A DNA stretch of 64,000 bases from NCBI GenBank assembly GCA_024743215.1, contig JANSWZ010000001.1, positions 806,001-870,000 on the forward strand. The letters run 5' to 3'. Below, piece by piece: positions 7,772-27,553 of the stretch. The notes below the pieces were generated by a model. That model was not told the DNA's origin. It saw nothing but the letters and a program-made list of their open reading frames with translations, and searched no databases. The position numbers and the translations under genes were made by a program. The first letter of the stretch is position 1. The number at the start of each line of letters is the position of its first letter. This DNA comes from Alphaproteobacteria bacterium. Lineage in GTDB: Bacteria > Pseudomonadota > Alphaproteobacteria > Rhizobiales > GCA-2746425.

Positions 7772-7955
7772 AGCAGAAAGTGCGCCAAATGCGCTCTACG
7801 CTTTGATTGAGACAAAACGCTTTTGTAGGTCTGAGCCGGACTTATATTCGCATGCACTGTGCGGAATGCAAGCTGATGCTGCAGAACAGGTTGACGCGGC
7901 GATAAAGGTGGCTATAAAGCCAGAATGAAAATGAATTGGGTAGCAATTCGGCAGC

Positions 7956-7980
7956 AAAAAACCTGAAACCGCGGTTTTTT
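7956..7980 (+). terminator. Possible rho-independent terminator upstream of tRNA-Ser
   Basis: AAAAAACC pairs with GGTTTTTT across a 9-nt loop and runs into a T-tract. It lies after the NTF2-like gene and before the tRNA. An inner palindrome AAACCGCGGTTT overlaps it. The stem is weak because it is mostly A-T, so confidence is moderate. Confidence 0.4.
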
Positions 7981-8014
7981 TGAACTATCGAAACTGTAAT
8001 GATCTCAATGCGTT

Positions 8015-8104
8015 GGATGGGTGGCCGAGCGGTTGAAGGCACCGGTCTTGAAAACCGGCGTGCGTGAAAGCGTACCGTGGGTTCGAATCCCACCCCATCC
8101 GCCA
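8015..8104 (+). tRNA. tRNA-Ser (anticodon TGA)
   Basis: The acceptor arms GGATGGG and CCCATCC pair perfectly, followed by the discriminator G and an encoded CCA. The anticodon stem CCGGT/ACCGG encloses the loop CTTGAAA, giving anticodon TGA (serine UCA codons). A long variable arm, typical of serine tRNAs, follows, then the T-loop GGTTCGAATCC. At 90 nt it is full length. Its 3' end faces an almost gene-free accessory stretch, a common integration site. Confidence 0.97.
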
Positions 8105-9022
8105 TTAACATGAATTAAATATCTGTTTTAATGAGCAAAATTGACAGACTTCTGAATACGTTCCCACATTTATTCCCACACTGGACGGCGATTTGTGATG
8201 AATGCTTGCGGACAGGCTTGGCGTGATGATTTGCAATCATTGGCCGAGTAATTGGTTCCCACGCGAATAATCTCAGTACACATAAACCCGGACGAACGTA
8301 GTGACAGCTCAGATCTGTTTTTGATGAAAGTAGCCTTGTTGTTTTTGGCTGTGTAATCTGGTCGAGTTGTCTTCCATGCAGTCATCTCGCTGGCTGCGGT
8401 ATCAACTTGGCTGACTTGCGGAAATTTCCTGCAAAGGCAGTCGAAAATGTGATCCTTGATCGCGAAGCAGACCAACAAACGCAGACGAACACGCTCCTTT
8501 CAGCGCCCGAAAAGTTCAAACTTTTCAAGAACATCATTTACGAGATATTAAATTCAGCCCCCTAAGGGCATGATCCACTAATCGATATAGAACGGATGGC
8601 CTCTCACCGAACTTCAGAGACCTTCGCATGGTAACGACTTTTAACCAGTTGGGGCGGGAGGCGGACATTTGCCGCAGATTGAACAATTGGTAGCAGTGCG
8701 CACAAAGCCGCCGAAGGTTTTGCCGAGCGCAATAACGCTCCTAATCCATTGTTGACCTTTGCCTCCTAGACACTATGCGGGGTTTGGCCTGCGGAATTAC
8801 AGTTTGACTGAAACTCAGAAATCCTTTGACTTTCAGATTATTGCATCGCAAGGAATCAGAATTTGCGTCAGCCTTATTCCACAAAATGTCGGAACTTATT
8901 TAATGCTTCGCGACTTGTTTTTTCAGTTTTAACCGCTATTGACCGCATTTCATCTGCCAGTTTCAACATAACGTTGGCATAAATAACTCTGTCAGGGTTC
9001 TGCGCTAGCAGAAGGAATGTCA
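8105..9022. other. Gene-poor stretch downstream of tRNA-Ser
   Basis: No convincing gene is visible in these 918 bases. The start contains short TTCCCACA-type repeats (about 8160-8185, and a related TTCCCACG near 8253). The only longer ORF, 8170-8478 on the minus strand, has no recognisable motif, no clear ribosome site and a low-complexity composition. The position next to a tRNA 3' end suggests a decayed integrated element, but no integrase fragment could be recognised by eye. Confidence 0.5.
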
Positions 9023-9600: not shown

Positions 9601-12600
9601 ATGTCTCAGTTGTTCCTATCCCATTCGAGTTTTGATGAAGCCAAAGTGTTGGCCCTGCGGGACTGGTTGGCTGATCAGGGATGGAATGATGTTTTTCTTG
9701 ATCTTGATCCAGAATTCGGGCTGGTTGGTGGCCAGCGGTGGCAAGATGCGCTGAAGAACGCCGTGAGGCGTTGTGAAGGGGTCATTTTCTTGATCTCTCC
9801 TCACTGGGTGGAGAGCAAGTGGTGCTTAGCGGAATTTCTGTTTGCCAAGAGCCTGAACAAGCCTATCTTCGGCGTGTTGGTTGAAGCCACTCCGCTCGGC
9901 GACATTCCCATCGAAATGACTGCCGAGTGGCAACTGGTGGATCTTAGTAGAACCGGCGAAACGGAGACATTCAATGTAAGGCCGTCCAACGCAAATCAAT
10001 CGTCTACGGTAAGGTTCAACAGAGATGAGCTACGGCGTCTGAAGTCTGGATTGCTCAACACTGGACTCGACGCTGGCTATTTTGAATGGCCACCCCAATC
10101 AGATCCCGGTCGCTCACCGTATCCAGGTTTACGGGCATTACAACAAGAAGACGCCGGAATTTTCTTTGGCCGGAATGGCCAAATCCTGGAGGCGCTCGAT
10201 CGGCTGCGCGGATTGAGGGATTCACCGGCTCCGCGAATGTTGGTAGTGCTCGGGGCATCGGGTGCTGGGAAGTCCTCTTTCATGAGAGCGGGCTTACTGC
10301 CTCGTCTCAAGCGGGATGACCGCCACTTTTTCGTTTTGCCCCCGGTGCGTTTGCAAGGCGCAAAATCCGAGAACCAGAGTGGGTTGGTGGATAGCCTTTT
10401 TGAAGGATTTAAACAGCTAGGCAAGAGCAAATCCCGCAAAGCAATTAGAGACGTTTTGGCGACGGTGCGGCCAGCAAGTGCTCGGGCAAATGAAGTTGAA
10501 GAAAACAATTCTTCCAAAATTGCTGAACTGTTTTGTGAATTGCTGCAAGCCGTTTTCCCTTCCATAGACGCGGCTAGGTCAAATCCGCCGTCCATCATTC
10601 TGCCTGTTGATCAGGCAGAAGAGATGTTTTTTTCAAGCAGCGGAGTGATGGCTCAGGAGCTGGTATACGTTCTGGGTGAATTGTTGCGGGTAAATAGTCC
10701 GTCGATCATCGTTGCGCTGACCATGCGCTCAGATGCTTATGAAAAGCTCCAATATGACACTGTTTTGGGCCCTGTCTCTCATGAGATACTCAACCTGCCT
10801 CCTATGCCGTATGGAGCCTATTCACAGGTGATAAAGGGACCCATTGCCCGCATGAATGCGGGTGATGGCGACCGGTCCCCAGTGATCGAAGAGCAATTAG
10901 TTGACGAGTTACTGAAAGACATTGAAGCCGGCGGGGCCAAAGATGCGCTGCCCCTTTTGGCTTTTATTCTTGAGCGGCTTTACTCAGAATGCGGTGGTGA
11001 CGGAGAGCTGACGGTTGACCACTACGAGGCTCTTGGCCGCATCGGCGGAGCTATCGAGGCGGCGGTGGAAGGGGCGCTGAGGAAAGCGGTCGATGATGCC
11101 CGAATTCCACAAAACCGGAACCAGCAATTGGCATTATTGAGGCGCGGGCTTATTCCTTGGCTGGCAGGTGTTGATCCCGATACAAAGGAAAGCCGACGCA
11201 AGGTGGCGCGGTTATCAGATATTCCAAATAAATCCCGCCCGTTGATAGAATATCTAGTTGAACAGCGCCTGTTGGCTACCGACGTGCGGAATACCGATCG
11301 CAACCAAGACAATGACTCTGAAGTCAGCAACGTTGAAGTCACTATTGAACCAGCGCACGAGGCCTTGCTGCGGCAGTGGGGCCTGTTGGAGGGCTGGTTG
11401 GAAGAAGATTTTGAGGCTCTCGCGGCGATTGAAGGCGTACAAAGGGCGGCACTGGAATGGGAATCCAACAACCACGATGAGGGCTGGCTGGCGCATTCAG
11501 AAGGCAGACTAGAAACGGCGGAGCGGTTTGTTCAGCGCGAAGATCTGAGGGAACATCTCACGCCAACCCAACGGGACTATCTGCTTGCCTGTCGTGCCGT
11601 CGAAAACCTGCGCCGCAACCGCGAATTGAAAGCCCAAAGGCAGATAACCCGCAGAACTCGTTTGGGACTGATTGCAGCATCTGTCTTGACCCTAATTTCA
11701 GCTGCCATAGCCATTTGGGGGTGGACTGAATTCAGCGAAAGCAATCGGTTGACTGAAGATCTACGAGGGCGTGAAAAGCAGCTAGACTCGACCAATAAAG
11801 AACTAGCGCAACAGGCCGGACTGGCGATCAAAGAACGGCAGAAAGCTGAACGAGCGTTGAAGAGCGCGTTGGAGGCTTCAGCTTTGCAGGTCGCCGCAAC
11901 TCTCGGGACGGAATCTTTTAATTTGTCTGCAAATCTACTCAGATTGTTCGAAGTTTTGCCACGGCAAAATGGGCAGGAATTCAAGACCCAACCTGATCCG
12001 ACCGACATATCCTTGGTTGATGAGGCATTTGGTCACCTTCTGCGCCTTACTTCAGTCAGGCAAACCGCAACCCGGATTTTGCCAAGCAGCAATTCCAATG
12101 CCCACTTTCTGACCAAGGATGCACTCATCCTGCAAGAGTCCAATCGATTGTTTATCTATACACCGTCAATGGCGAAAAAGACCGTGCTGTTTGAGGACGC
12201 CAACGAGTCGTTCTTCTGTGAGAATTTCCATGCGCGTCTCTTTGCCACGCGGTCGCAAGCTGGCGTACACATATACCAGTTTGGGGATGATCTAGCGGTA
12301 CAGCGGGTCGCGAATATTGACCGGTCAGATATTAATGAATGCGCCATCAGTCGAGCTGGTACAGTGGCCCTGAGAACGTATGCAAGCGATGTATGGTTGA
12401 CGGAAGGCAACTTCGACCAACCGCTATTTGAGTTGCCAAGCCCCAATTTTGCCAAAAAAACACACGCCCGCATTTTGTTCTCGCCATCCGGCAACAAACT
12501 TTTTGTTGATTCAACTCATGTTCAAACAAAAGTCTTTGGTCTTCCGGTCAAAATTCCAAACTACGTGCAGGTTTACGACTTTGACCAATCGAGGATCACG

Positions 12601-14958
12601 CACACCAGCACTTATATAGGAGAATGGGTCGCTCTTTATGGATATGATAGCGGTTACCTGTTGGACTCAACAGGAGGTTCGGAGAGTATGAGTTTCTCAT
12701 ACTGGCGTGACGGATCGAACGAACGCGTGCCTTTGAGCCTAAACTTCAAGGATAACATAGAAAGCGCGACGCCTGCGTCTTCAGCGCCGATCATCGCGGT
12801 TCATCATGGTAGAGAAATACACTTTCTAAACTTAGAAAAATTAAGCAGCGGCCCATTCCATAGCTACAAACTGCCGAATGATGGCATTGGGAGCGTTGGC
12901 TGGAGCTTATCCGGTCGCCATTTCCTGATGCATCATGAAAGCGCGAGTGCCTTCATCGTCATAGAACCACTCAGCAACACCGCATTTTCACTGGTTTATG
13001 ATTTCCCGGATAGTCGCTCACGAGTTCAGATGATTGATCATCCAGAAGCGGACGAGCTTTTCATTTCTGCAGATAACCTACTGTTCGGATACACAGCAAC
13101 GCCGGAGTCCAAAAAACTAGCGCCCGGCGATGTATTGGAGGGCATGGTTGTCTCCCCGATTCATGAAAAGCAACAAATCGAAGGTGCGCTTTTGAATGGT
13201 TGGTTTTTGAATGCACACACGGTGAAATCAGTAAATCAACAAACGGCTCAATCAATTTGTAAAGGAGGTCTGTCCACCAACGGTATCGAAGCATACACTA
13301 ACGCTGATGCTCGCTTCTTTGACACTTTTTATTTGTATCAAACAGATGAACTGCCGTTGCATTTGGTTCTAGCGAGAGGCGGATGCGAAGATCTCACACT
13401 CATTGCGCTTGATGCTGCAAGTGGCTTCGATGTAAGTTCGGACTCGACCATCAGCGCCGTATTTCTCAATCGGAGCGAAGATCAAATGCTGCTTCAAATT
13501 GAGCATTTGGCTGATGGTTCTGACACCGACGAAAAAGTGATGGCTACCCTTGTCTGGTATGATCTGAACAACAGGCGAGTCTTAGCATCAGTTCCTATTG
13601 GGACACATAAATTCTCTATTTCTCGATTGGTGACAGACGACAATTTCGATCTGATAGCGATCTATGAAAATCCATATAATTCCAGCATAAATGTGATAAG
13701 CCGCAACATCGTGGTTTGGGATCAAAAAAATAACAAAAGACATGACATTGAAACACCAAGCGTTTCTGAATTGGAGGATGTGTTTGTCGATAGCGCAAGT
13801 GGTGAGGTGTTCGCAACTGACCTCGGTGGCATGCTTTATGGTTGGAAAAGAGCAAGCAAGTTTGCTGTAACATCCTCGATGGAAAACATTGGTCTTAGAA
13901 GCGATATTATCGGTCGCAGCAAATCCGGCTGGCTGCTCATTAAATCGCTATTCGGCGAAAACAAGTGTGGATTGACCGCTGTTAAGTCTGATTTTTCAAG
14001 GCAGCACATCATCGACCGTTTTGGCTGCGGTTGGTATGCCAACGAAAAGTACGATGGCACCTATGTTTCCGGCAATGTGCTGGTGTTTCCTGAACAAGGC
14101 TTCAAATTGGATCTCAGCATATTGGATCAGCCACCGCGTGACCTCATATCTGCTTGGCGGCTTCGCAATTATTCATATGGGCACAGACAAAACTTGCGTC
14201 GTTCAATCAAGCGGCGTTCAAGTGAAACCACAGAAGATGATGTTTTCGAATGTGACCGCTTGGTTTCGTTTGCATTCGATCCACAACGTCTTTTCCAAAA
14301 GGGCATTCGATACGATTTCATTATCCCCGATCTTGCAACCAAAGCCTGTTCGGAAGCGCTCGAGGAATCTAAAAACCATCCTCGGCTTCTGTTCCAGATG
14401 GGTCGGGCATTGCAAGCATCCGCTCAAGCCATGCGTGAACAGCAACAGGACTACAGGGCGACAATTGACCAAGCCTATCGTAATTATGAGGCAGCTTGGG
14501 ATGCAGGATATCCGGTTGCTGCTTACAGCATCGCAAATTTGGTTCTGGAATACGATTTAGAAGATATGAAGAGGGACAGGGCCGTTGAGCTTTATGAAGA
14601 AGCATTCAGGATGGGGGTCAGCAATGCTGCGGTTGTGCTCGGTGAACTTTATTGGAATGGTCACATCGTAAATATGGATCGCAAACGGGCAGAGGCCTAT
14701 TGGCGCGCCGCTGCGGAACAAGGCAATCCCAACGGTCACAAGCTAATGGGTGGCCTACACATGGATTCAGATCACGCCAATTTCAGTCTAAAGAAGGCCC
14801 TGCTGCACTACGCATTGTCGGTAAAAAGATTTAGTGCGCTGGGCTTAGAGGAAAGTGCCGACGAAGTACGGGCAATACGAGCATCCCTTGCGCGAGCACT
14901 CAACCACAAAGAAGTTGCTGACATCTGGGCGCAAGTGCGAGATGCGCCTGAATTTTAG
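9601..14958 (+). CDS. TIR-nSTAND1 NTPase-TM-propeller-Sel1 repeat protein, candidate defence effector
   Basis: The 1785-residue protein opens with a TIR domain (about 1-120): FLSHSSFDEA, DLDPEFGLVGG and SKWCLAEF, where Glu78 sits at the position of the catalytic Glu of TIR NADases. An nSTAND1-type NTPase follows (about 172-600), entered by SPYPGLRAL, with Walker A GASGAGKSS at 218-226 and Walker B SIILPVDQAEEMF at 331-343. The linker ends in one transmembrane helix (about 685-708) and a coiled coil (about 720-765). Residues of about 800-1560 look like degenerate beta-propeller repeats (FSPSGNKLF, VGWSLSGRHF, VVWDQKN). The C-terminus (about 1625-1730) carries Sel1-type repeats. TIR-STAND proteins are known anti-phage sensors that deplete NAD; membrane anchoring and Sel1 repeats are less common additions. 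Function here is inference. Confidence 0.85.
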   Translation: MSQLFLSHSSFDEAKVLALRDWLADQGWNDVFLDLDPEFGLVGGQRWQDALKNAVRRCEGVIFLISPHWVESKWCLAEFLFAKSLNKPIFGVLVEATPLGDIPIEMTAEWQLVDLSRTGETETFNVRPSNANQSSTVRFNRDELRRLKSGLLNTGLDAGYFEWPPQSDPGRSPYPGLRALQQEDAGIFFGRNGQILEALDRLRGLRDSPAPRMLVVLGASGAGKSSFMRAGLLPRLKRDDRHFFVLPPVRLQGAKSENQSGLVDSLFEGFKQLGKSKSRKAIRDVLATVRPASARANEVEENNSSKIAELFCELLQAVFPSIDAARSNPPSIILPVDQAEEMFFSSSGVMAQELVYVLGELLRVNSPSIIVALTMRSDAYEKLQYDTVLGPVSHEILNLPPMPYGAYSQVIKGPIARMNAGDGDRSPVIEEQLVDELLKDIEAGGAKDALPLLAFILERLYSECGGDGELTVDHYEALGRIGGAIEAAVEGALRKAVDDARIPQNRNQQLALLRRGLIPWLAGVDPDTKESRRKVARLSDIPNKSRPLIEYLVEQRLLATDVRNTDRNQDNDSEVSNVEVTIEPAHEALLRQWGLLEGWLEEDFEALAAIEGVQRAALEWESNNHDEGWLAHSEGRLETAERFVQREDLREHLTPTQRDYLLACRAVENLRRNRELKAQRQITRRTRLGLIAASVLTLISAAIAIWGWTEFSESNRLTEDLRGREKQLDSTNKELAQQAGLAIKERQKAERALKSALEASALQVAATLGTESFNLSANLLRLFEVLPRQNGQEFKTQPDPTDISLVDEAFGHLLRLTSVRQTATRILPSSNSNAHFLTKDALILQESNRLFIYTPSMAKKTVLFEDANESFFCENFHARLFATRSQAGVHIYQFGDDLAVQRVANIDRSDINECAISRAGTVALRTYASDVWLTEGNFDQPLFELPSPNFAKKTHARILFSPSGNKLFVDSTHVQTKVFGLPVKIPNYVQVYDFDQSRITHTSTYIGEWVALYGYDSGYLLDSTGGSESMSFSYWRDGSNERVPLSLNFKDNIESATPASSAPIIAVHHGREIHFLNLEKLSSGPFHSYKLPNDGIGSVGWSLSGRHFLMHHESASAFIVIEPLSNTAFSLVYDFPDSRSRVQMIDHPEADELFISADNLLFGYTATPESKKLAPGDVLEGMVVSPIHEKQQIEGALLNGWFLNAHTVKSVNQQTAQSICKGGLSTNGIEAYTNADARFFDTFYLYQTDELPLHLVLARGGCEDLTLIALDAASGFDVSSDSTISAVFLNRSEDQMLLQIEHLADGSDTDEKVMATLVWYDLNNRRVLASVPIGTHKFSISRLVTDDNFDLIAIYENPYNSSINVISRNIVVWDQKNNKRHDIETPSVSELEDVFVDSASGEVFATDLGGMLYGWKRASKFAVTSSMENIGLRSDIIGRSKSGWLLIKSLFGENKCGLTAVKSDFSRQHIIDRFGCGWYANEKYDGTYVSGNVLVFPEQGFKLDLSILDQPPRDLISAWRLRNYSYGHRQNLRRSIKRRSSETTEDDVFECDRLVSFAFDPQRLFQKGIRYDFIIPDLATKACSEALEESKNHPRLLFQMGRALQASAQAMREQQQDYRATIDQAYRNYEAAWDAGYPVAAYSIANLVLEYDLEDMKRDRAVELYEEAFRMGVSNAAVVLGELYWNGHIVNMDRKRAEAYWRAAAEQGNPNGHKLMGGLHMDSDHANFSLKKALLHYALSVKRFSALGLEESADEVRAIRASLARALNHKEVADIWAQVRDAPEF

Positions 14959-15134: not shown

Positions 15135-16247
15135 TTATGGCAGGGCGCGAATGGTTCCGATCTCTATCGGCGCTCCAGTGTGTGCTGACTTTATGGCTGC
15201 GAATGTGAGCGCCAGACTTTGCAGATTTCCGCTGGCGCCATTGTTCGGTTCCCGGTTTTCTTCAATAGCACTCAAAAGCTCGCCCATAGTGCCGGCAAAC
15301 CCATCATTGAACCATGTTCCCACTAGCTCGGGGCGCGCTTCTCCGCGCTCTGTGGTCAGTGTCACACTCTGTGCGTTCAGATCTTTTCCCACGCTGTAAA
15401 GGCTGCCCTTTGTGCCACCGATGAAGGAACTGTCCAGCGCGCCATGTTTGACACTGCCGTCAAAGACCAGAGACGACTGCCCGCCCTCAAACTGAATCAG
15501 GGTCTGGCTCAAAAGAGGCGGCTTGGCACTTTGATCTTTGGCGCGGGCCTGCGTTGCAAATACAGTTTGCATACGGTCACCCAGAAGGCTGGACATGAAA
15601 TCGAACCAATGGACCCCAAAATCGTACAAAATCAGGTCATGGATATCGTTAAATGGTGTGCGTGCAATCCAGCTGTGATCCCAGTGCATGTGCGCATGGC
15701 TGCTTGTCACCTCACCGATGAGCCCGGTGCGAACGGCCTCACGCATATAGGCCATATGGGGTGCCCAGCGACCGTTTTGATTGACTGCTAGCCGCACACC
15801 ATTTTCGCGCGCCAATTTTATCATTGTTTCGCCTGCATCGAGGTCCGTAACAAATGGCTTTTGCGATAGCACATGCTTGCCTGCCGCCAGCGCTTTCTCG
15901 ATCATACCAAAGCGCACATCCGGGTGTGGCGTGATGTCAAAGACGGCAATGGATGTGTCATTGAGCAAGTCGTCATAGTTGTCTGTCGCGACTGCATTGG
16001 GGAAAAATTCGGCGCGCAAAGCCTCTGCTTTTGTGAGCGTGCGGTTGCATATGGCAGCAATATCAAAGCCTGCTTTGCGGTAGGCATCCAGATGCGCGGA
16101 CGCAATCCCGCCTGCGCCAATAAGCGCAATGCGCGGCCGATAGGATTGAGGCATGGGCGGTGTGTAATTTAAAGTCGGCGCGTCGATAATTGGCAGGTCG
16201 TAAGTGCGCAACGCATAGGTATCAGCATCCGGTGTTTCGCCACTCAT
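15135..16247 (-). CDS. Gfo/Idh/MocA family oxidoreductase (moc-like cluster)
   Basis: From the ATG at 16247 the product is 370 residues. The longer ORF start is rejected because 16244-16247 is an ATGA overlap with the upstream Gfo/Idh gene. After about 30 residues the Rossmann motif IALIGAGGIASAHLDAYRKA appears, followed by the family signature around QKPF (normally EKP; here Gln replaces Glu). The C-terminal beta-sheet domain includes HMHWDHSWIARTPFNDIHDLILYDFGVH, with the usual D-x-x-x-H active-site area. Such enzymes oxidise or epimerise sugars or inositols with NAD(P). It is the last gene of the operon running down from mocD. Confidence 0.9.
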   Translation of the reverse strand: MSGETPDADTYALRTYDLPIIDAPTLNYTPPMPQSYRPRIALIGAGGIASAHLDAYRKAGFDIAAICNRTLTKAEALRAEFFPNAVATDNYDDLLNDTSIAVFDITPHPDVRFGMIEKALAAGKHVLSQKPFVTDLDAGETMIKLARENGVRLAVNQNGRWAPHMAYMREAVRTGLIGEVTSSHAHMHWDHSWIARTPFNDIHDLILYDFGVHWFDFMSSLLGDRMQTVFATQARAKDQSAKPPLLSQTLIQFEGGQSSLVFDGSVKHGALDSSFIGGTKGSLYSVGKDLNAQSVTLTTERGEARPELVGTWFNDGFAGTMGELLSAIEENREPNNGASGNLQSLALTFAAIKSAHTGAPIEIGTIRALP

Positions 16248-17320
16248 GACACAAGCGCCAAAGTTTTTTTCTGCTGGGCGGACAGGTAGGCAGTGTCCAC
16301 GATGCGTTGCGCTGTGAGGCACAGATCTGGCGACAGTGGCCCTTCAATGGGGCGGTTATTTTCTATGCAGTTCAAAATGTATTCGATGGGATTGGTGTGT
16401 CCGGGCGCAAGCACATCGACCGGAACTTTCTTCTGGTCCGGTTCGGCGGCAGTCTGCACCGTAACAAAATCATCATAATCATAGCTGGAGATTGTGCCGC
16501 CGGTGCCAACAACAACAAAGCCGCATTGCGGTTGTGGCTGCGTTACCCATGGATCGGTAAACGTGCCCCAGCGTGTTTCCATCTTCGAAAGGCCCTGTTC
16601 ATAACGGCAGATGGTAATGGAATGTTGGTCGACTTCGATACCGGCTGTCTGGTCCACCACACAGGTCACCTCCAGCGGCGCACGTCCGTCCATGAACCAT
16701 GTGCCAAGCGTGGCACCATAACCAAGATAATCCAGCAGGCTGCCTCCCCCGGACGCTTTCCTGTACCACCATGATTCAGGTTTTTGTTGCTCAACCTGCT
16801 CTGCCGAGACCTCTACCTTGTCGGCCAAATGATAGAGCGGCCCGCGGTTGCCACCATAGTGATGAACTTCAATCAATTCGCCAATAACGCCATCTTCGAT
16901 CAACCGCTTGCAGGTGTTGTGGCTGGGGTACCATGCCAATGGCCAATTGATCGCCATCAGTTTTCCAGTCTGGGCCATTGCCGCCATCATGCGCTTCGCG
17001 TCTGCTGTGGAAGCAGCAAATGGCTTTTCCACATGGATGTGAACATTATGCTTAGCCAGAGCTACGACATGATCTGCGTGTTCGGCGGTGGCCGCACACA
17101 TGATTGCCAAATCCGGTTTCGTTTGCACTACGCACGCGTCGAGATCCGTGAATACAGCATCTTCGGGAATGTCAAAATCCGCGATGGCCTGTGCCATCTT
17201 ATCCCGAGATTTATCGTAGATTCCAACAATTTCAGCCTTTGGATGCTCATGCACCAACCGCAACAGATCGCCCATATGCATGTGATCAAAATTAATGCCG
17301 GTTACCCGAAACTTGCTCAT
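16244..17320 (-). CDS. Gfo/Idh/MocA family oxidoreductase
   Basis: The 358-residue product belongs to the same superfamily as its downstream neighbour but is clearly a different subfamily. The N-terminus MSKFRVTGINFDHMHMGDLL lacks the standard GxGxxG, instead reading GINFDHMHMGD, as in some MocA-like subfamilies. The signature HVEKPFAAS is intact at about residues 94-102. A C-terminal domain with SGGGSLLDYLGYG follows. It probably acts on the same polyol pathway as the MocD/MocE pair. It lies 36 bp after the PanB-like gene in the same operon. Confidence 0.9.
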   Translation of the reverse strand: MSKFRVTGINFDHMHMGDLLRLVHEHPKAEIVGIYDKSRDKMAQAIADFDIPEDAVFTDLDACVVQTKPDLAIMCAATAEHADHVVALAKHNVHIHVEKPFAASTADAKRMMAAMAQTGKLMAINWPLAWYPSHNTCKRLIEDGVIGELIEVHHYGGNRGPLYHLADKVEVSAEQVEQQKPESWWYRKASGGGSLLDYLGYGATLGTWFMDGRAPLEVTCVVDQTAGIEVDQHSITICRYEQGLSKMETRWGTFTDPWVTQPQPQCGFVVVGTGGTISSYDYDDFVTVQTAAEPDQKKVPVDVLAPGHTNPIEYILNCIENNRPIEGPLSPDLCLTAQRIVDTAYLSAQQKKTLALVS

Positions 17321-17356: not shown

Positions 17357-18157
17357 TTATTTCGTTTCAAGCGTCTCTAAAATCGCTTTTTGCGCATCAT
17401 GATCAAGTGGAACCAATTCATCCGCGACAGGAAATGCACCTGAAGCCACATCTGACGCGTAGTCTTGAAAGGCCTTTATGCGCATGGCTTGCAGCTTCTG
17501 ATATTCCGATTGCAGATCGGCATATCGCCTTGCATGGCGTGGATAATGCCCGTCATGGGCGCCCAGTACATCGCACGCGAACAGATATTGCGCGTCGCAT
17601 CCCATGCCCGCACCCATCGAAATCATCAACATCGCAGTTTGCGCTGAGATGGCTTTGGCGACGGCGGCCGGCACGACTTCGATCTCGGCAGCAAAAGCGC
17701 CTGCTTCTTCCAGCGCCTTTGTCTCCTCAAGGATCCAAAGGGCACTTTCCGGTGTTTTGCCCACGGCTTTGAACCCACCAGTCCATGTTCGGCGCGACGG
17801 GATGAGACCAACATGACCGACAACCGGAATTCCCTCATCTCGCAGCCGCCGGACAATGGGAAGACTGGCCCCGCAATAGACGGCATTTGCCCCCGCATTC
17901 AGCAGCTTGAAGGCAATGCGCAAATAGTCTTCTTCAGTCACAAACAGACCGGGCTCCAGGCCCCCCACAACAAATGGGCTGGGGCAAATCCGCCTGAATT
18001 CTGGCAGGAGTAAAAGCTCTGGCGGAACCGACAGCATGTCGATGCCTGCGGCGCTAGCCGCCGCTGCGTCGTCCAATGTCTCCACGCGCAATTTCGTCAG
18101 TTGCCGAACGCCCTTCAACGCTAACAGTTCAGCAACACTCAGGGGATCATTGGCCAT
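17357..18157 (-). CDS. PanB-like (ketopantoate hydroxymethyltransferase family) protein, apparently without metal ligands
   Basis: The 266-residue product aligns by eye with PanB: GHVGLIPSRRTWTGGFKAVG corresponds to GHLGLTPQ...GGYKVQGR, and ISMGAGMGCDAQYLF to the IGIGAGN..DGQ stretch. PanB transfers a one-carbon unit from methylene-tetrahydrofolate to a 2-oxoacid. However, where PanB has VGDSLG, DLPF and the K-x-E of VKIEGG, this protein reads SVPPEL, GGLEPG and VYCGAS, so the Mg2+-binding Asp/Glu residues appear absent. The catalytic Glu region (EIEVVP) is kept. It is probably a paralogue with another role, such as lyase or one-carbon handling next to the MocD/MocE oxygenase, rather than pantothenate synthesis. 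Confidence 0.75.
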   Translation of the reverse strand: MANDPLSVAELLALKGVRQLTKLRVETLDDAAAASAAGIDMLSVPPELLLLPEFRRICPSPFVVGGLEPGLFVTEEDYLRIAFKLLNAGANAVYCGASLPIVRRLRDEGIPVVGHVGLIPSRRTWTGGFKAVGKTPESALWILEETKALEEAGAFAAEIEVVPAAVAKAISAQTAMLMISMGAGMGCDAQYLFACDVLGAHDGHYPRHARRYADLQSEYQKLQAMRIKAFQDYASDVASGAFPVADELVPLDHDAQKAILETLETK

Positions 18158-18219: not shown

Positions 18220-18534
18220 TCAATCCAGTTTGAAAAACAAACGTCCGCCCCGAATGTCTGTCTCATAAGTTTTCAGATTGACGCAAACCGGCGCGCCCTT
18301 TGCTTCACCTGTGGTGAAATCAAAACGGCCATTGTGTTTCGGGCATTCAATTATTTTGCCCATGACCAGACCATTGGCGAGCGGCACCCGCTCATGCGTA
18401 CACAGGCCATCAGTCACATAGTATTGGTCATCTTCAGTCCGGTAGAGCGCATAATACCCACCATCATGTTTGAACGTGATCGCGTCTTCCTCGTCGATAT
18501 CGTCCAGCGCGCATGCATCAATCCAATCACTCAT
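18220..18534 (-). CDS. mocE: Rieske-type [2Fe-2S] ferredoxin, MocE family
   Basis: The 104-residue soluble Rieske protein has both cluster-binding motifs: CTHERV (Cys-x-His) at about residues 45-50 and CPKHNGRF (Cys-x-x-His) at about 64-71. Its length and order fit the MocE ferredoxins of rhizopine catabolism, which feed electrons to MocD. The gene lies 18 bp downstream of the MocD-like gene on the same strand. No ferredoxin reductase (MocF) was found in the window, so the electron donor must be encoded elsewhere. Confidence 0.88.
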   Translation of the reverse strand: MSDWIDACALDDIDEEDAITFKHDGGYYALYRTEDDQYYVTDGLCTHERVPLANGLVMGKIIECPKHNGRFDFTTGEAKGAPVCVNLKTYETDIRGGRLFFKLD

Positions 18535-18552: not shown

Positions 18553-19632
18553 CTAGCTTGAAGTTTGAAAGACCGCGCCAGGATTATGTGGCACGGGCTC
18601 TGCGCCATTGGGTAAAGTGCGGCGCACGAAAAAACCCGGCTCTTTCAACTGGCGCAGAAGTGTCGGAATTATCTCGCGATAGGCAGCGATTGAACTTGGA
18701 TAAGGTTCAGGACAATCATGCTTGATAGCCTCATGCAATTGCGGCAGTGCATGAAACGGAACCATCGGGAACATGTGATGTTCGATATGATAATTCATGT
18801 TCCAATACAAAAAGCGGAAGATCGGGTTCATATAAACAGTACGGGAATTCAATCGGTGGTCGAGTACATCCTCGGCCAATCCAGAATGCTGCGTCAAACC
18901 AAAATAAATTGCCATGAACCCGCCATAGAGGGACGGCAAACCGACCAGCATAGCCGGTAAAATTGACCCCGTGGCAATGCACACCAAGACAACACCGAGC
19001 AGAATTGCAATGTATAGACGAGCGATCCAATAGACTTTGGATCGCTCGCTCTCCGGCACAAATGTCGCTTCATTTGGTGTAAGTTTCCCACCTGCGTGCA
19101 GGAACAGTGCTTTTATGGTTTTCCATGTGCTGACAAGGGCGAAGATATTCAACAGCATCGCCTTGATATCAGGCGGTCGCGGCGTTGCGATCTCCGGATC
19201 ACGCCCGACAATGATGGTATCGGTATGGTGGCGTGTATGACTCCAGAGCCAGATGGTGGGTTCACGCAAAATCAAAAAGCTGGAAAAATAGTACAGCGCG
19301 CTGTTCATCCAACGGGTTTTAAACGCGGTTCCATGGCCGGATTCATGCCAGCGACTGTCTGACGAGGAACCGTAAAGAACGCCATAGACCAGAAAAAACG
19401 GAACGCACCACCACGTGCCCCAGAAATAGGCGCCGCCTGCGCCAGAGACCAGCAAAAGCCCGAGCCAAATCAAAGTGTCTCGAATGGCTGGAGAATCCGA
19501 TCGCCGCATGAGGCGTTTGATTTCCTTGCGATCAATATCCACTGAATACCAATCGGCAGCCACTAGGCCGTTTTGCTCGGCGAGTTCTGAATCGCGGCCC
19601 ACAAGGCTGTAGTCGCGTGCTGTTGGTGTCAT
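18553..19632 (-). CDS. mocD: MocD-type membrane di-iron oxygenase (fatty acid desaturase family)
   Basis: The 359-residue protein has the three histidine boxes of membrane di-iron enzymes: HESGH (about residue 95), HTRHH (about residue 132) and HIEHH (about residue 287), spaced by hydrophobic helices such as LIWLGLLLVSGAGGAYFW. The pairing with a MocE ferredoxin identifies it as MocD, described in Sinorhizobium and Rhizobium as part of the oxygenase that demethylates the rhizopine 3-O-methyl-scyllo-inosamine. Oxidative O-demethylation would release formaldehyde. It heads the minus-strand operon and faces a LacI regulator. The substrate here could be another O-methylated polyol. Confidence 0.86.
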   Translation of the reverse strand: MTPTARDYSLVGRDSELAEQNGLVAADWYSVDIDRKEIKRLMRRSDSPAIRDTLIWLGLLLVSGAGGAYFWGTWWCVPFFLVYGVLYGSSSDSRWHESGHGTAFKTRWMNSALYYFSSFLILREPTIWLWSHTRHHTDTIIVGRDPEIATPRPPDIKAMLLNIFALVSTWKTIKALFLHAGGKLTPNEATFVPESERSKVYWIARLYIAILLGVVLVCIATGSILPAMLVGLPSLYGGFMAIYFGLTQHSGLAEDVLDHRLNSRTVYMNPIFRFLYWNMNYHIEHHMFPMVPFHALPQLHEAIKHDCPEPYPSSIAAYREIIPTLLRQLKEPGFFVRRTLPNGAEPVPHNPGAVFQTSS

Positions 19633-19655: not shown

Positions 19656-19755
19656 TACCTTGTGATCATGGTCCGTTCAGAAAACGCCTTGGTCAAGCAA
19701 TTTTCGTACGCAATTCCCTTAAAACAGTCGCTTTTTGACAATTTTTCTTGATAAC

Positions 19756-19770
19756 ACCTCAAAATGAGGT
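19756..19770. promoter_or_regulatory. Candidate operator ACCTC-AAAAT-GAGGT
   Basis: A perfect inverted repeat with 5-bp arms lies 25 bp upstream of the preferred LacI start codon. Together with the repeat near 19643 it could allow LacI autoregulation and control of mocD. Confidence 0.4.
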
Positions 19771-19795
19771 CTTATTGCGTGTCATGAAGGATAAA

Positions 19796-20827
19796 ATGTT
19801 GACAAAACCCGGCACAACCAAAGTCACAGTGTCAGAGATCGCCAAACGCGCCGGTGTGTCAAAAGCCACTGTGGACCGGGTGCTCAACAGCCGGGATGGC
19901 GTGCAGATACACACAAGGCAGCACGTCTTGTCTATTGTGCGCCATTTGAAGGGCGACGTGTCAAAAGCTCCGACAGGTCTTCTTGAAACGATAGAACTCG
20001 ACTTTGTTATCCCTGATTATCGCAACGCATTTTTGGCCGAACAGGCACATCATATAGAAAGCTATTGTCGGTCAATTGACGGTGTGGCCTCGACCATTCA
20101 CCACCTCAACAGCGCCAATGAAGAGGCTGTTCTGCAAGCGATAGGCGAGATAAGCGACGCGTCTGACGGCGTAGGCATAATTGGTGTGGACACGGCCAAG
20201 GTGCGCCATGCGCTTCGCGGTCTCAACACACGCAATATTCCAGTTGTCACACTTGCCTCCGATATCCGTCAGATTAATCGGCGCGCCTATATCGGCATAG
20301 ACAATTACGCAGCCGGCCGCCTTGCGGGCTATTTGATGGGTAAGCTTATCGCCGCACCAAGCGCCAAAACGGCTATCATCTTGGGGCTACGTGCATATCT
20401 GGGGCATGAGGAACGTGAGATGGGTTTCAGAAGCGTTCTGCGTGAACAATGCCCGCACCTCAAAATTGTAGCAGAACATGAAGTCGCTGAAGACAATATC
20501 TGCGCGCGGGACACGCTGCTTGATCTACTCAAAGTCCAACCTGATCTCAATGGCATCTATTGCATTGGGTCAGGACAAACCGGCATCATCGATGCTCTGA
20601 ATATCACAGGTAAGGCGCAGAGTGTGACCGTCATAGGTCATGGCCTGACCGACGACACGCGGCAATATCTCATTGATGGCGCCATGGATGCGATCATCAA
20701 CGAAAACGCCAAGGACGAGGCTCGCGGCGCTGTTGATCATTTGGTTGCGGCTGCACGTGGCCTTGCGCAACCGGAACTGAATCCCATCGCCATTCAAGCG
20801 ATTTTCCCGGAAAACATACCACTATGA
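19796..20827 (+). CDS. LacI family transcriptional regulator
   Basis: Starting at the ATG at 19796, which has AAGGA just before it, the protein has 343 residues. The ORF track's earlier TTG at 19748 is less likely because it would place coding sequence over an inverted repeat. The N-terminal HTH VTVSEIAKRAGVSKATVDRV is the LacI signature, with VDRVLN forming the hinge start. The rest is a periplasmic-binding-protein-like sensor domain (DLDFVIPDYRN type through HGLTDDTRQYLIDGAMDAII) close to ribose/inositol-type LacI sensors. Its stop overlaps the next gene by ATGA. It likely represses the divergent mocD operon and perhaps the downstream importer. Confidence 0.93.
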   Translation: MLTKPGTTKVTVSEIAKRAGVSKATVDRVLNSRDGVQIHTRQHVLSIVRHLKGDVSKAPTGLLETIELDFVIPDYRNAFLAEQAHHIESYCRSIDGVASTIHHLNSANEEAVLQAIGEISDASDGVGIIGVDTAKVRHALRGLNTRNIPVVTLASDIRQINRRAYIGIDNYAAGRLAGYLMGKLIAAPSAKTAIILGLRAYLGHEEREMGFRSVLREQCPHLKIVAEHEVAEDNICARDTLLDLLKVQPDLNGIYCIGSGQTGIIDALNITGKAQSVTVIGHGLTDDTRQYLIDGAMDAIINENAKDEARGAVDHLVAAARGLAQPELNPIAIQAIFPENIPL

Positions 20828-21948: not shown

Positions 21949-22929
21949 TCAGCGGTCCTGTGTGAGACGCACATAGATCGCGGTAACACCCAAAATGATG
22001 AGGCCGAAGAAGATGCGGCGCGTGCCTTCAGGTATCTGCATGACCGTAAGCATGGTTGCCAAAACTGTGAGGATCAACGCGCCGACAATGGTACCCGAAT
22101 AGCCGCCACGGCCTCCAAAAATTGATGTGCCGCCGATAACGGCAGCAGCGACCGAAGGCAAAACCCTCGGTTCAACAAGCGAAAGCGACGGTGCTTTGAT
22201 CAGTCCGAGATAAAGCAGGCCCGTAATGCCAGCGATCAAACCTGAAATAACATACAGTGTAATGAGCACTTGCCATGTGCGCACACCGGCCAAACGGGCC
22301 GCCTCTTCATTTTCGCCCACAGCATAAAGCAGCCGTCCAAAACCGGTTCGGCGCAGCCCAACAATTATGATAACCGCCAGGGGTACGAAAATGATCAGCG
22401 AATTTGGGACCCCATAACTCAACCCGGTTCCCAGCCAGGACAGGATATCGGGAACAGATGAGCCAGATGCAATGACTGTGCGTTGGTAAACGAGCAAACA
22501 ACCCGTTCCGATCAGGCCTGTCCCCAACGTCATGATCAACGGATGCACCCGAAACAGAGCAACCCCCACCCCATTGACAAGGCCAATGAGCAGCGGCGGA
22601 ACAAGCGCGACAAGAATGGCCCCTGTGGGTCCGAGCACCGTCAATTGGCTTGCAGCCACAAAAGCACTGACGGTCGCGGCCACACCAACTGACAGATCAA
22701 TTCCGCCTGTGAGCATCGTCAGGGTTTGACAGGCAGCAAGCATGGCGAGTGGAATTGCAAATTTGACGGTGTTTGCCATCCAACGCTCGTTGATGATGCC
22801 AGGCCGCATCACCTCAAGGGCTACCACAAGGCCTAACAACAGGATGATCAACGGGATAATGGGATAGTCCCGGACCAGCGTACGCAGGCCTTTCAACCAG
22901 TTATTTGATTTGCTGGATACAGCCGTCAT
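21949..22929 (-). CDS. Ribose-type ABC transporter permease 2 (moc importer)
   Basis: This 326-residue RbsC-family (CUT2) membrane protein has eight to ten hydrophobic segments and the family-typical stretches MLTGGIDLSVGVAATVSAF and AAVIGGTSIFGGRGGYSGTI. The paired permease gene overlaps its start by 4 bp. With the ATPase and periplasmic protein upstream it makes a full ribose/inositol-type importer in which the two permease subunits differ. The substrate is likely the polyol degraded by the nearby Gfo/Idh, MocD and isomerase enzymes. Confidence 0.92.
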   Translation of the reverse strand: MTAVSSKSNNWLKGLRTLVRDYPIIPLIILLLGLVVALEVMRPGIINERWMANTVKFAIPLAMLAACQTLTMLTGGIDLSVGVAATVSAFVAASQLTVLGPTGAILVALVPPLLIGLVNGVGVALFRVHPLIMTLGTGLIGTGCLLVYQRTVIASGSSVPDILSWLGTGLSYGVPNSLIIFVPLAVIIIVGLRRTGFGRLLYAVGENEEAARLAGVRTWQVLITLYVISGLIAGITGLLYLGLIKAPSLSLVEPRVLPSVAAAVIGGTSIFGGRGGYSGTIVGALILTVLATMLTVMQIPEGTRRIFFGLIILGVTAIYVRLTQDR

Positions 22930-23900
22930 CTTGTCTTCCGCCTGGCTGCCATAAATCCTCCTGCCATCACCACAACAACCATGATCGTGCCTTCAACAAT
23001 GGTTGTAATGTTGGGATCAACCGACATCAGTGTGAGGTCTGTTCGGATCAAACGAAGTATCAATACTGCAATAATGGGGCCGAGCAGACCGCCAACGCCG
23101 CCGCCCAAAGTTACGCCGCCAAGCACCACCGCTGCAACACTGGCCAACAGATATGGGCCAGGAATAGGTGCTCCAATGCCAGTGCTGGCTGTCAGCACCA
23201 AACCGCCCATCGCTGCAAACAATCCGCAAATTGCATAAGCAGCAATCTTGGTTCGGTTGACATTAACGCCAGACCGGAACGCTGCCATGTCAGATGAACC
23301 GATCGCATAAACCGACAGGCCGAAATTCGACCTGCGCAGTGGTATCCACACAATGCACAAAAACACCACCATCACGATGAAAGCTTTGGGCACCCATTGA
23401 GTCACGATTTCGGGAATAAACCCCAGCACAATCGAGCCGACAAGCATTCCCTGGACCCACTCGGCAGAACCGCCCCCGGGCGAATTCAAAATCATCAGGG
23501 CGACGCCTTCCCACACAAACAACATCGCCAGCGTCACCACAATGTCCGGGACACGCGTGATAACGATCAAGACGCCGTTTATCGCTCCCATGGTCGCGCC
23601 GACCAGCAGTACGACAGGGATCACAAGAAATGCGAATTGTTCGCTGGCGCCGTCCATCAAGACAGCCGCAGTAACGCTGGAAACCGCCATCATCGATGCA
23701 ATTGACAGATCTATACCACCTGCAATCACGACAATCGCCTGTGCCGCCGTTGCAAAAGCGAAAGGCAAAGCGGCCCGTGTCAGAGCTTCCAATCCGAATG
23801 TGCCGAAATTTGGTTGGATCACGCGGGTGAAAACCAACAATGCGATCAAGATCAGCAGCAGTCCGAAAGTCCAATAATGTTTGCGCAAAAAACGGAACAT
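22926..23900 (-). CDS. Ribose-type ABC transporter permease 1 (moc importer)
   Basis: The 324-residue product belongs to the same CUT2 permease family as its downstream partner, with VIAGGIDLSIASMMAVSSV and VLGGVTLGGGVGGLLGPII as the conserved stretches. The ATG overlaps the stop of the ATPase gene by one base and is preceded by a GGTGA-containing purine run. Two different permeases next to a single two-domain ATPase suggest a heteromeric channel. The many neighbouring polyol dehydrogenases point to an inositol-like ligand. Confidence 0.92.
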   Translation of the reverse strand: MFRFLRKHYWTFGLLLILIALLVFTRVIQPNFGTFGLEALTRAALPFAFATAAQAIVVIAGGIDLSIASMMAVSSVTAAVLMDGASEQFAFLVIPVVLLVGATMGAINGVLIVITRVPDIVVTLAMLFVWEGVALMILNSPGGGSAEWVQGMLVGSIVLGFIPEIVTQWVPKAFIVMVVFLCIVWIPLRRSNFGLSVYAIGSSDMAAFRSGVNVNRTKIAAYAICGLFAAMGGLVLTASTGIGAPIPGPYLLASVAAVVLGGVTLGGGVGGLLGPIIAVLILRLIRTDLTLMSVDPNITTIVEGTIMVVVVMAGGFMAARRKTR

Positions 23901-25420
23901 CAGGTCACCGTCCCCTGCGCTGCAGTCTGTGCGGCCTCAGGCAGAGTGTCATCAGCCGTTAATCCATAGGCTGCGCGCATCAATGTTGGTTCATCTGCTT
24001 GCTCGGCGTCCATCTGGTCCACCACCCGGCCATTGAATATGACAACAACTCGGTCACAGGCTTGTTGCACCTCAGCCAATTCTGAAGTGTAAAACAAGAC
24101 TGATGAGCCTTGTTCAGCAAGTTCGCGCAACAATGGATAAATCTGATGTTTTGTACGCACATCAATCCCGCGCGTCGGATCAAAACACAGGATCGTTTGA
24201 AAACCCATTGCTAACCAGCGAGCAATCGTCACTTTTTGCTGATTGCCACCAGACAATCGCTGCACCTCGCCCTGCGCGCGTGTATCTATCTGCAGTCGTT
24301 CAATCGCAGCGTCCACTTTTGCCTTTTCCGCTGCCATATCAATCAAGCCCCATTGTGAGGGCTTGGTGTGAAATGGAACGGCTATATTTTCACGCACAGA
24401 GCGCTGCATCAGCAATGCCTCGGCGCGGTCGCCTGGCACATAGACATGGCCTGCGGCAATTGCATCGGCCGGATGTTTGAATCGGCAAGGCGTGCCATCA
24501 ATTGAAAATCCGCCGCCGTCTGGTTGGGCCATACCAGCCAAAACTTCAAACAGTTCATCTTGCCCTTGTCCTTCAAGGGCGACTACGCCGAGCACCTCGC
24601 CAGCACGCAGATCAAATGAAACATCAGTCAGTTTTGAACCAGCAGATAATTGCGATACTTCCAGTCGCGGTTTGAGCACCTCTTTGACTGATGCGGTGGC
24701 ATAGGCTCTCTTCTTGGCTTTGATGGCATCGCCCAGCATCAACTCGACGATTTCCTCTTCGACCCCATCAGTGATGGCCAGATCGCCCACCGTTTTACCA
24801 TCACGCAGCACCATCGCACGGTCGCAAACTGCCGCAATTTCAGGAAACCGGTGGGAAATATAAATCACCGACCGATCCAACGGCTTTTGCTGTTTCACGA
24901 CATCAAGAACGCGGTCGACAAGATTGGCGGGCAGCGCGGCTGTCATCTCATCGAGCAATAAAATAGCCGGCTCGCTGGCAAGGGCGCGGGCCAAGTCAAT
25001 CACGCGCTGAACTGCTAATGGCTGATGCCGGGCCAACTCACTCAAATCCACATCAGGCACACCCAATTCATCAAGCCAATGGCGAAAAGGATCAACGGGC
25101 GTACTGCCAAGCTTCAAATTGTCCAGAATATTCAAATCGGGAATGAGGGATGGTTCCTGATAGACTGGTACGAGTCCTGCGCGGCGTGCATCCGCTGGAG
25201 AGCTGACTTTGAAACGGTTCCCACGGATGGTAATTTCCCCGTCGCTTGGACTGATAGCGCCAGTCAATATTTTTACGAGTGTGGATTTTCCCGCGCCATT
25301 TGCACCCATAAGCGCAATTACTTCACCAGGTGCGACATCGAGTGAAGCATCCTTGAGCGCAGCAACCGCACCATAGTTTTTGGCCACATTCCGAGCGCTC
25401 AAAATCGGGCTTAGCGCCAT
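23900..25420 (-). CDS. Two-domain sugar ABC transporter ATPase (RbsA/MglA type)
   Basis: The 506-residue ATPase has two fused nucleotide-binding domains. The first carries Walker A GANGAGKSTLVKIL, Walker B AILLLDEMTAAL and the H-loop YISHRFPEIA, but a degenerate signature (LARHQPLAVQRVIDLARAL). The second has the family's reduced P-loop ALEGQGQDELFEVL and a good signature LSGGNQQKVTIARWL. This asymmetry is usual in RbsA-type proteins, though LARHQPLAVQ in the first domain is unusually far from LSGGQ. GAGGGGA precedes the ATG. It follows the SBP gene across a strong stem-loop. Confidence 0.93.
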   Translation of the reverse strand: MALSPILSARNVAKNYGAVAALKDASLDVAPGEVIALMGANGAGKSTLVKILTGAISPSDGEITIRGNRFKVSSPADARRAGLVPVYQEPSLIPDLNILDNLKLGSTPVDPFRHWLDELGVPDVDLSELARHQPLAVQRVIDLARALASEPAILLLDEMTAALPANLVDRVLDVVKQQKPLDRSVIYISHRFPEIAAVCDRAMVLRDGKTVGDLAITDGVEEEIVELMLGDAIKAKKRAYATASVKEVLKPRLEVSQLSAGSKLTDVSFDLRAGEVLGVVALEGQGQDELFEVLAGMAQPDGGGFSIDGTPCRFKHPADAIAAGHVYVPGDRAEALLMQRSVRENIAVPFHTKPSQWGLIDMAAEKAKVDAAIERLQIDTRAQGEVQRLSGGNQQKVTIARWLAMGFQTILCFDPTRGIDVRTKHQIYPLLRELAEQGSSVLFYTSELAEVQQACDRVVVIFNGRVVDQMDAEQADEPTLMRAAYGLTADDTLPEAAQTAAQGTVT

Positions 25421-25450
25421 ACATCAAAGTCCCCTCAGACCGAAAAAACG

Positions 25451-25485
25451 TGCGGGTCGCTGGCGTCAAACGCCAGCGACCCGCA
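25451..25485 (-). terminator. Strong stem-loop with T-run between SBP and ATPase genes
   Basis: TGCGGGTCGCTGGCG and CGCCAGCGACCCGCA form a perfect 15-bp stem with a 5-nt loop. On the minus strand it is followed by CGTTTTTTCGG. This looks like a rho-independent terminator or attenuator that lets only part of transcription pass from the binding-protein gene into the ATPase and permease genes. Confidence 0.8.
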
Positions 25486-25497
25486 GCCGGGCGATTG

Positions 25498-26541
25498 TTA
25501 TTCGCCAGGACCTTTACAAGCGATGATCTGCTCTTTGGTGTAGTTCGTCCATTCTGGGATCATGATGGAAACGGGCCATTCCGGATCCAGCGATGGATCG
25601 GCTGCTGCTTGCAACTTTGCCTTTCCTGCATCAGTGGCATTTTCCCACAATTCAGGATCAACCAGAACCACGCGGTCAGCGGGTTTTTCACCTTCCAACA
25701 AACTGATTGCCAGCGCAACACCTGCACCACCAACAGAACCTGGGTTGGTGACAGCTGCACCGATTAGCCCATCCACGGAATTAAGCTGACCGACAAAACC
25801 GGCATTATCCGCGCCGACGATTGGCACAAGTGGCGTATCGGATTCAACGAACGCGTCGACAATGACATTATCGATGCCCGACGTCCAAACACCGTCAAAT
25901 GGAATGCCGGTCGCAATGTAATCCAGGATTTGCTGTTTTCCCTGATCCTGTTGCCAGCCGGTGAAAACTTCCAGTGCAATACTGACGTCAGGGAATTCCG
26001 CCAGCGCCTTTTTGAAGCCTTTGTCGCGGTCATCATCGGCAGATGCACCCGCAGCGCCGCGCATATAGACAACAGTCCCCTTGCCCTCGATTTGCTCGAA
26101 CAACCATTTTGCACCCAAATAGGCGTATTCTTCTTGGTTGTTCGACAGCACATAGGCGGAATCTTCATTCACCGTTTGATCAACGGCCACCACCACGATG
26201 CCACGATCGGTCGCAGCTTTCACAGCAGATTTAATGCCATCAGGGTTGGAAGGGTTGACCACAATTGCGTCTACACCAGCTTGGATGAGGTTGTTGATAT
26301 CCTCAATTTGCCCGGCTGCATCGGTATTGCGGTGCGCAATGTTGAGCGATTTCACTTTGCCGGATGCCAGCGCTTCCGCTTTCATGGCGCAAACCATCTC
26401 TTCACGCCAACCATTGCCCTGAACCGTATTGGAAATGCCAATTGTATAATCAGCTGCCATCGCAGTTGACATCAAACCAAGCGTGAAGGCACCCAAAAGT
26501 GCGCCCTTGAGTAATCTCTTGCTCATATTCATTTCTCCCAT
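25498..26541 (-). CDS. Periplasmic sugar/polyol-binding protein (MocB-like)
   Basis: The 347-codon ORF encodes a secreted type-I (RbsB-like) binding protein. The signal peptide runs MSKRLLKGALLGAFTLGLMS with cleavage likely after AMA, giving mature ADYTIGISNTVQGNGWREEM. The family's core segments are present: AGVDAIVVNPSN and VVAVDQTV. Start sites are crowded: ATG 26541 has GGAGAATCT upstream, while the third ATG (MSKR) has GGGAGAA upstream; the protein from MSKR is a typical length. Rhizopine importers use MocB of this fold. It is the first gene of the importer operon. Confidence 0.9.
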   Translation of the reverse strand: MGEMNMSKRLLKGALLGAFTLGLMSTAMAADYTIGISNTVQGNGWREEMVCAMKAEALASGKVKSLNIAHRNTDAAGQIEDINNLIQAGVDAIVVNPSNPDGIKSAVKAATDRGIVVVAVDQTVNEDSAYVLSNNQEEYAYLGAKWLFEQIEGKGTVVYMRGAAGASADDDRDKGFKKALAEFPDVSIALEVFTGWQQDQGKQQILDYIATGIPFDGVWTSGIDNVIVDAFVESDTPLVPIVGADNAGFVGQLNSVDGLIGAAVTNPGSVGGAGVALAISLLEGEKPADRVVLVDPELWENATDAGKAKLQAAADPSLDPEWPVSIMIPEWTNYTKEQIIACKGPGE

Positions 26542-27537: not shown

Positions 27538-27553
27538 GTCACCTCTCTTTGTT

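Follow-up and report, generated by a model that had tools for sequence, protein, structure and literature searches.

The window, by which we mean the whole 64,000-nucleotide stretch of DNA analysed here, carries on its reverse strand a gene (17357 to 18157) for a 266-amino-acid protein that resembles PanB, ketopantoate hydroxymethyltransferase. PanB shifts a CH2 unit between methylene-tetrahydrofolate (methylene-THF) and an enolate held by Mg2+. The protein encoded in the window, which we call PanBL, is a PanB-fold protein without the Mg2+ ligands of PanB, and its gene shares an operon with MocD- and MocE-type genes. The locus raises the question of whether the metal site has truly gone and, if so, what such a protein does in such an operon.

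RESULTS

PanBL is a selected protein of the PanB fold

PF02548 (ketopantoate hydroxymethyltransferase) was the sole Pfam match of PanBL (140.8 bits; cut-off, 28.7), and the protein scored below both NCBIfam cut-offs for PanB (124.9 versus 272 bits and 105.9 versus 207.55 bits). The nearest solved structures by sequence are PanBs. An AlphaFold model, made with 34 sequences as input, predicted a TIM barrel with a mean pLDDT of 89.5 (the loop at residues 120 to 128 was poor), and the top matches to this fold in the PDB were again PanBs (Foldseek E value of ~1e-17 and TM score of ~0.67). A dN/dS of 0.06 to 0.09, together with invariant active-site residues, rules out a pseudogene, and the same dN/dS argues that the loss of the metal site is not a matter of chance or decay.

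The metal ligands of PanB are lost throughout the PanBL family

We aligned 91 close relatives of PanBL (the main group) and 23 divergent ones with 32 PanB-like rows drawn from the order (31 canonical); PanB residues (D45, D84, E114, K112, and E181) are named after E. coli PanB. In the first-pass annotation, the motifs SVPPEL, GGLEPG, and VYCGAS had been placed by eye at the Mg2+ ligands of PanB, and the alignment bore this out, setting D45 on P46 (in SVPP; codon at 18020 to 18022), D84 on G66 (in GGLEPG; 17960 to 17962), and E114 on G96 (in VYCGAS; 17870 to 17872), all on the reverse strand. The D/D/E triad is intact in none of the 114 PanBL relatives, compared with 31 of the 32 PanB-like rows. 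The first Asp alone persists in two relatives, main-group sequences have P, G, and A/S/G at the three columns, and K112 of PanB is replaced by Y94. In the AlphaFold model, the three motifs lie at the ends of strands 41 to 44, 62 to 67, and 92 to 95, the ligand positions of PanB, a placement that rests on strand positions and the fold search rather than on residue-level superposition.

It had been allowed that the ligands might instead sit at shifted positions. No acidic residue is conserved from −3 to +5 of the three columns (such residues peaked at 77% in the main group and at 43% in the divergent one), so that no nearby shift of PanB's own site was seen. Judged by the alignment, the Mg2+ site of PanB is gone from PanBL, and E158, on another strand, is the sole remaining candidate for a relocated ligand.

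That annotation was also right in finding GHVGL and GAG retained. H115, the conserved His of GHVGL (codon at 17813 to 17815, reverse strand), is invariant in the family save for one gapped row; E160, the counterpart of the catalytic Glu of PanB (E181), is invariant, and D196 and the GAG region, D188 included, persist as well. New in PanBL are W125 (91 of 91 in the main group), H208, R226 (within a segment absent from PanB), and E158. This last Glu is present in all 114 relatives, whereas the residue is hydrophobic (V or L) in 31 of the 32 PanB-like rows, and it lies two residues ahead of E160 on the same strand (codons of E158-I159-E160 at 17678 to 17686, reverse strand). A new site was possibly built on E158, with E160 and H115.

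Two other proteins were seen in passing. A PanB-like protein at locus L128 (6268 to 7182, forward strand) keeps D45, has Ser for D84 and Gln for E114, and carries the PanBL-specific Glu; by these residues, it may be an evolutionary intermediate between PanB and PanBL. At locus L121 (about 7500 to 8600, reverse strand), a genus mate encodes an odd PF02548 protein (207 bits) with WAQFGVTP in place of GHVGL.

PanBL is not a true PanB

A likely ortholog has been studied genetically. The "second panB" of Rhizobium etli CFN42, RHE_PE00443 on plasmid p42e, was reported in 2011 to have no detectable metal-binding domain; an R. etli panB mutant stayed auxotrophic despite RHE_PE00443 at its own locus, and plasmid-borne RHE_PE00443 did not complement it (PMC3082293). 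Near the end of p42e, we found a PanB-annotated gene (488817 to 489632) whose product shares 60% identity with PanBL over 260 amino acids and scores 466 bits with the PanBL family model. The record carries newer locus tags, and we identify this gene as presumably RHE_PE00443. For the R. etli ortholog, the missing metal site and the lack of PanB function are thus already published. The earlier view that PanBL cannot work as a standard PanB is upheld by this failed complementation (PMC3082293) and by the family-wide loss of metal and keto-acid residues; ligand loss, the missed NCBIfam cut-offs, and the R. etli genetics together rule out a true PanB.

The window's genome has no PF02548 gene besides PanBL, and PanC (PF02569) was absent from that genome and from four others of the genus (0 of 5). 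A separate true panB-panC pair, which the first-pass annotation had expected elsewhere in the genome, was looked for there and not found. By these searches, a true PanB in the window's genome and PanC in the genus seem to be missing, and with no panB-panC pair, the organism is predicted to be a pantothenate auxotroph. PanBL relatives carry the PanB annotation on many rhizobial plasmids, so that genomes can be credited with a pantothenate pathway that they lack.

PanBL lies in an operon with MocD- and MocE-type genes

Directly upstream of PanBL, on the same reverse strand, are genes for a MocE-type Rieske ferredoxin (18220 to 18534; TIGR02377, 147.4 bits, above the cut-off) and a MocD-type membrane di-iron oxygenase of the fatty-acid-desaturase fold (18553 to 19632; assigned by PF00487 and neighbourhood comparison). 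Directly downstream, also on the reverse strand, is a Gfo/Idh/MocA oxidoreductase gene (B, 16244 to 17320; Pfam), and a second (A) lies at 15135 to 16322, its best NCBIfam model, inositol 2-dehydrogenase, being below the cut-off. A LacI-type regulator (19748 to 20827, forward strand; Pfam) is divergent from mocD and is adjoined by a conserved protein without a Pfam match that also occurs in loci L002 to L007 (20824 to 21948, forward strand). Then follow, on the reverse strand, a ribose-type ABC transporter of two permeases, an ATPase, and a binding protein (21949 to 26541; ORFs and NCBIfam) and a xylose-isomerase-like TIM-barrel protein (26623 to 27567; PF01261).

Several rhizopine-associated features were looked for around this operon. 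No mocF adjoins it (the best homolog in the genome, at 40%, is on contig C14), no MocR was met beside it, the adjoining regulator being of the LacI type, and the binding protein scored 20.2 with the rhizopine model, whose cut-off is 420. A literature search for a PanB-like protein tied to mocE or mocD or to rhizopine found nothing. A PurU-like protein (formyl-THF deformylase; 49176 to 50048, forward strand; PF00551 plus ACT), the only full-length PurU match in the genome, is encoded immediately 3′ of an FGGY sugar kinase, ~31 kb from PanBL and unlinked to it here.

Elsewhere in the window, a 1785-amino-acid protein (9601 to 14958, forward strand) has, by eye, a TIR-like start, a P-loop region, and Sel1-like repeats near its end; such a layout is possibly that of a defence or signalling protein.

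PanBL is a recurrent, optional module of oxygenase pathways

A scan of GTDB genomes gave 503 stretches encoding relatives, and the best 80 were kept, the rest possibly including true PanBs. Neighbour genes at GC-rich loci were called by tblastn and codon-position GC; greedy longest-ORF calls gave false genes. Among the best 80 of the 503 loci, 75 contained mocD, 72 mocE, and 46 mocF, and mocD lay no more than 6 kb from PanBL in 95 of 113 loci, where mocE and mocF frequently accompanied it. At most loci, PanBL is surrounded by Gfo/Idh dehydrogenases, xylose-isomerase-like proteins, and sugar ABC transporters; one locus carries TRAP-transporter-like genes.

At five divergent PanBL loci, mocD is replaced by a sterol-desaturase-type oxygenase (PF04116 confirmed in three), and at two others by a Rieske-type oxygenase (PF00848 confirmed in L126). 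That divergent PanBLs adjoin other oxygenases implies that what PanBL itself requires is shared by several of them.

Individual divergent loci were laid out as follows. Two Bradyrhizobium plasmid clusters (L114, 7971 to 13470; L115, 7519 to 13337) contain a ribokinase, a divergent PanBL, a sterol-desaturase-type oxygenase, a Rieske ferredoxin, a TIM-barrel protein, and an FAD reductase. In L126 (6253 to 8243, reverse strand), PanBL adjoins the alpha subunit of a Rieske ring-hydroxylating oxygenase, and L127 (3910 to 7521, forward strand) has a row of MocD-like, MocE-like, M24 creatinase-type peptidase, and divergent PanBL genes.

Across 399 genomes, PanBL and MocD occurred together in 18, MocD alone in 11, and PanBL alone in 1 (Fisher p of ~1e-22, uncorrected for kinship). 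Fifteen MocD loci without an adjoining PanBL were sampled: six came from genomes with PanBL elsewhere and nine from genomes in which no PanBL was found, so this type of demethylation can do without PanBL. On a quick MocD tree, the presence of PanBL changes at least six to nine times, a figure biased by the choice of rows through PanBL. PanBL is a recurrent, optional module of these oxygenase pathways.

In some lineages, purU directly follows PanBL

In 15 of 116 loci, the purU gene lies directly 3′ of PanBL and on its strand; in one more it is divergent and adjoining. The gap is within ~100 bases in most of the 15, and purU sometimes overlaps the PanBL stop codon. The adjacency is found in both alpha- and betaproteobacteria, its lineages including Phyllobacterium, Devosia, and Paramesorhizobium on the one hand and Leptothrix and Sphaerotilus on the other. 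In six of the 16 purU-adjacent loci, a glycine-betaine-type Rieske oxygenase is near and could account for purU. In the arrangements glyA-soxBDAG-purU and MABO-folD-purU, purU accompanies demethylation enzymes that yield methylene-THF (PMC3691474, PMC6214936), and it is from this genomic link via purU that we infer a connection of PanBL to folate.

PanBL is a distinct, conserved, and selected subfamily, partly described before; what is new relative to the 2011 report is that this conserved, selected family is tied to oxygenases and is sometimes directly followed by purU.

DISCUSSION

With its fold, metal-site loss, new invariant residues, selection, operon membership, oxygenase links, and, in some lineages, purU link established, and with the published failure of an ortholog to act as PanB, PanBL probably handles a one-carbon unit derived from demethylation rather than making vitamin B5. 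The reading that we favour, with a confidence somewhat short of even, is that PanBL is an enzyme that arose from PanB and took on a new role in oxidative demethylation, that of loading the released carbon onto THF; we infer its reaction, its substrate, and its use of THF. MocD and MocE, together with a reductase, would hydroxylate an O-methyl group on an inositol or sugar derivative, and the product would then release that carbon at the formaldehyde level. PanBL, having kept the tetrahydrofolate/one-carbon half of the PanB site and lost the Mg2+/keto-acid half, would join this carbon to THF to give methylene-THF, and downstream folate enzymes, including a co-transcribed PurU in some lineages, would take it on to formate. 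We read PanBL in this way because the catalytic Glu and core motifs are kept while the enolate-holding half is lost, and because of the partners of PanBL. Several observations count against it: purU adjoins PanBL at a minority of loci, and at six of these 16 the glycine-betaine-type oxygenase offers another reason for it; some genomes with MocD yielded no PanBL; and in the window, purU is ~31 kb distant and mocF does not adjoin the operon. The earlier suggestion of a different step in a moc-like pathway is consistent with the mocD and mocE linkage, the reaction itself being the conjectural part. A more specific form, possible but distinctly tentative, is that PanBL is a dedicated formaldehyde:THF condensing enzyme, or a hydroxymethyl transferase from the oxidised O-methyl group directly to THF, and acts as a plug-in one-carbon module shared by no fewer than three unrelated types of oxygenase.

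The parent substrates of the pathway are likely O-methyl inositols or sugars, since inositol derivatives have been connected with the LacI-type regulator that lies divergently from mocDEF (PMC3538637), since Mimosa exudate, whose most concentrated compound is pinitol, induces the mocDEF homologs of R. mesoamericanum (PMC5789663), and since Gfo/Idh, TIM-barrel, and sugar ABC genes lie around PanBL. Should the one-carbon reading be true, PanBL would supply a formaldehyde-to-folate step missing from the utilisation of methylated inositols and sugars. Such compounds are abundant around legume roots.

Other functions must be weighed. PanBL might work on the sugar or inositol carbon skeleton downstream of the oxygenase, as an isomerase, dehydratase, or metal-free lyase. 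We consider this unlikely, though it deserves serious attention: the Gfo/Idh, xylose-isomerase-like, and sugar ABC genes around most loci fit it, as do the MocD clusters without PanBL, which are expected if PanBL is substrate specific, and the repeated changes on the (biased) MocD tree. However, the oxygenases and transporters to which PanBL is tied differ widely, a Rieske oxygenase and the TRAP-transporter-like locus among them; PanB-fold lyases depend on the metal that PanBL has lost; and purU would be left unexplained.

It is rather improbable that PanBL is still a hydroxymethyltransferase acting on another acceptor through a rebuilt site, perhaps a new metal or catalytic centre of E158, E160, and H115. 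The invariance and position of E158 would suit such a site, as would the protein at L128, which has this Glu and D45 without D84 and E114, but PanB's acceptor-side residues S46 and K112 have likewise been lost, and the neighbourhood suggests no acceptor beyond carbohydrates.

The tight operon link to mocD and mocE would also be expected of a non-catalytic partner that helps to assemble or regulate the MocDE oxygenase. This role is very doubtful, in that many MocDEF clusters lack PanBL, PanBL also occurs with unrelated oxygenases, and H115, E158, E160, D188, and D196 are invariant at the active-site end of the barrel. That PanBL functions as a PanB and serves pantothenate synthesis, as its being the sole PF02548 gene of the genome might suggest, is scarcely credible against the absence of PanC in five of five genomes of the genus, the lost Mg2+ ligands, and the failure of the R. 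etli ortholog in panB complementation (PMC3082293).

Comparison with known systems

PanBL shares with PanB (PF02548; PDB 1m3u, 1oy0, and 3vav) the TIM-barrel fold, the GHVGL and GAG motifs, the catalytic Glu, and the Asp of the D-x-LG motif. It differs in lacking D45, D84, E114, and K112, in a shorter segment after strand 2, in the new invariant E158, H208, and R226 and near-invariant W125, in missing the PanB model cut-offs, and in a locus that is not a pan operon. RHE_PE00443 is an ortholog of the window's PanBL and has the mocD-mocE-FAD reductase neighbourhood in common with it, but the R. etli genome also holds a true panCB pair and the window's genome has none.

As in rhizopine-type MocDEF systems, MocD- and MocE-type partners stand directly upstream of PanBL in the window, and a LacI-type regulator is divergent, as at other mocDEF loci; in contrast, the published moc lists (mocRABCDEF) contain no PanB-like gene, and the window operon has no adjoining mocF. 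In the folate-linked demethylation operons (glyA-soxBDAG-purU and MABO-folD-purU), the demethylase has its own folate step, whereas at PanBL loci a PanB-fold protein with a putative link to folate stands in that place; in some PanBL lineages, as in those operons, purU lies beside an oxidative demethylation module.
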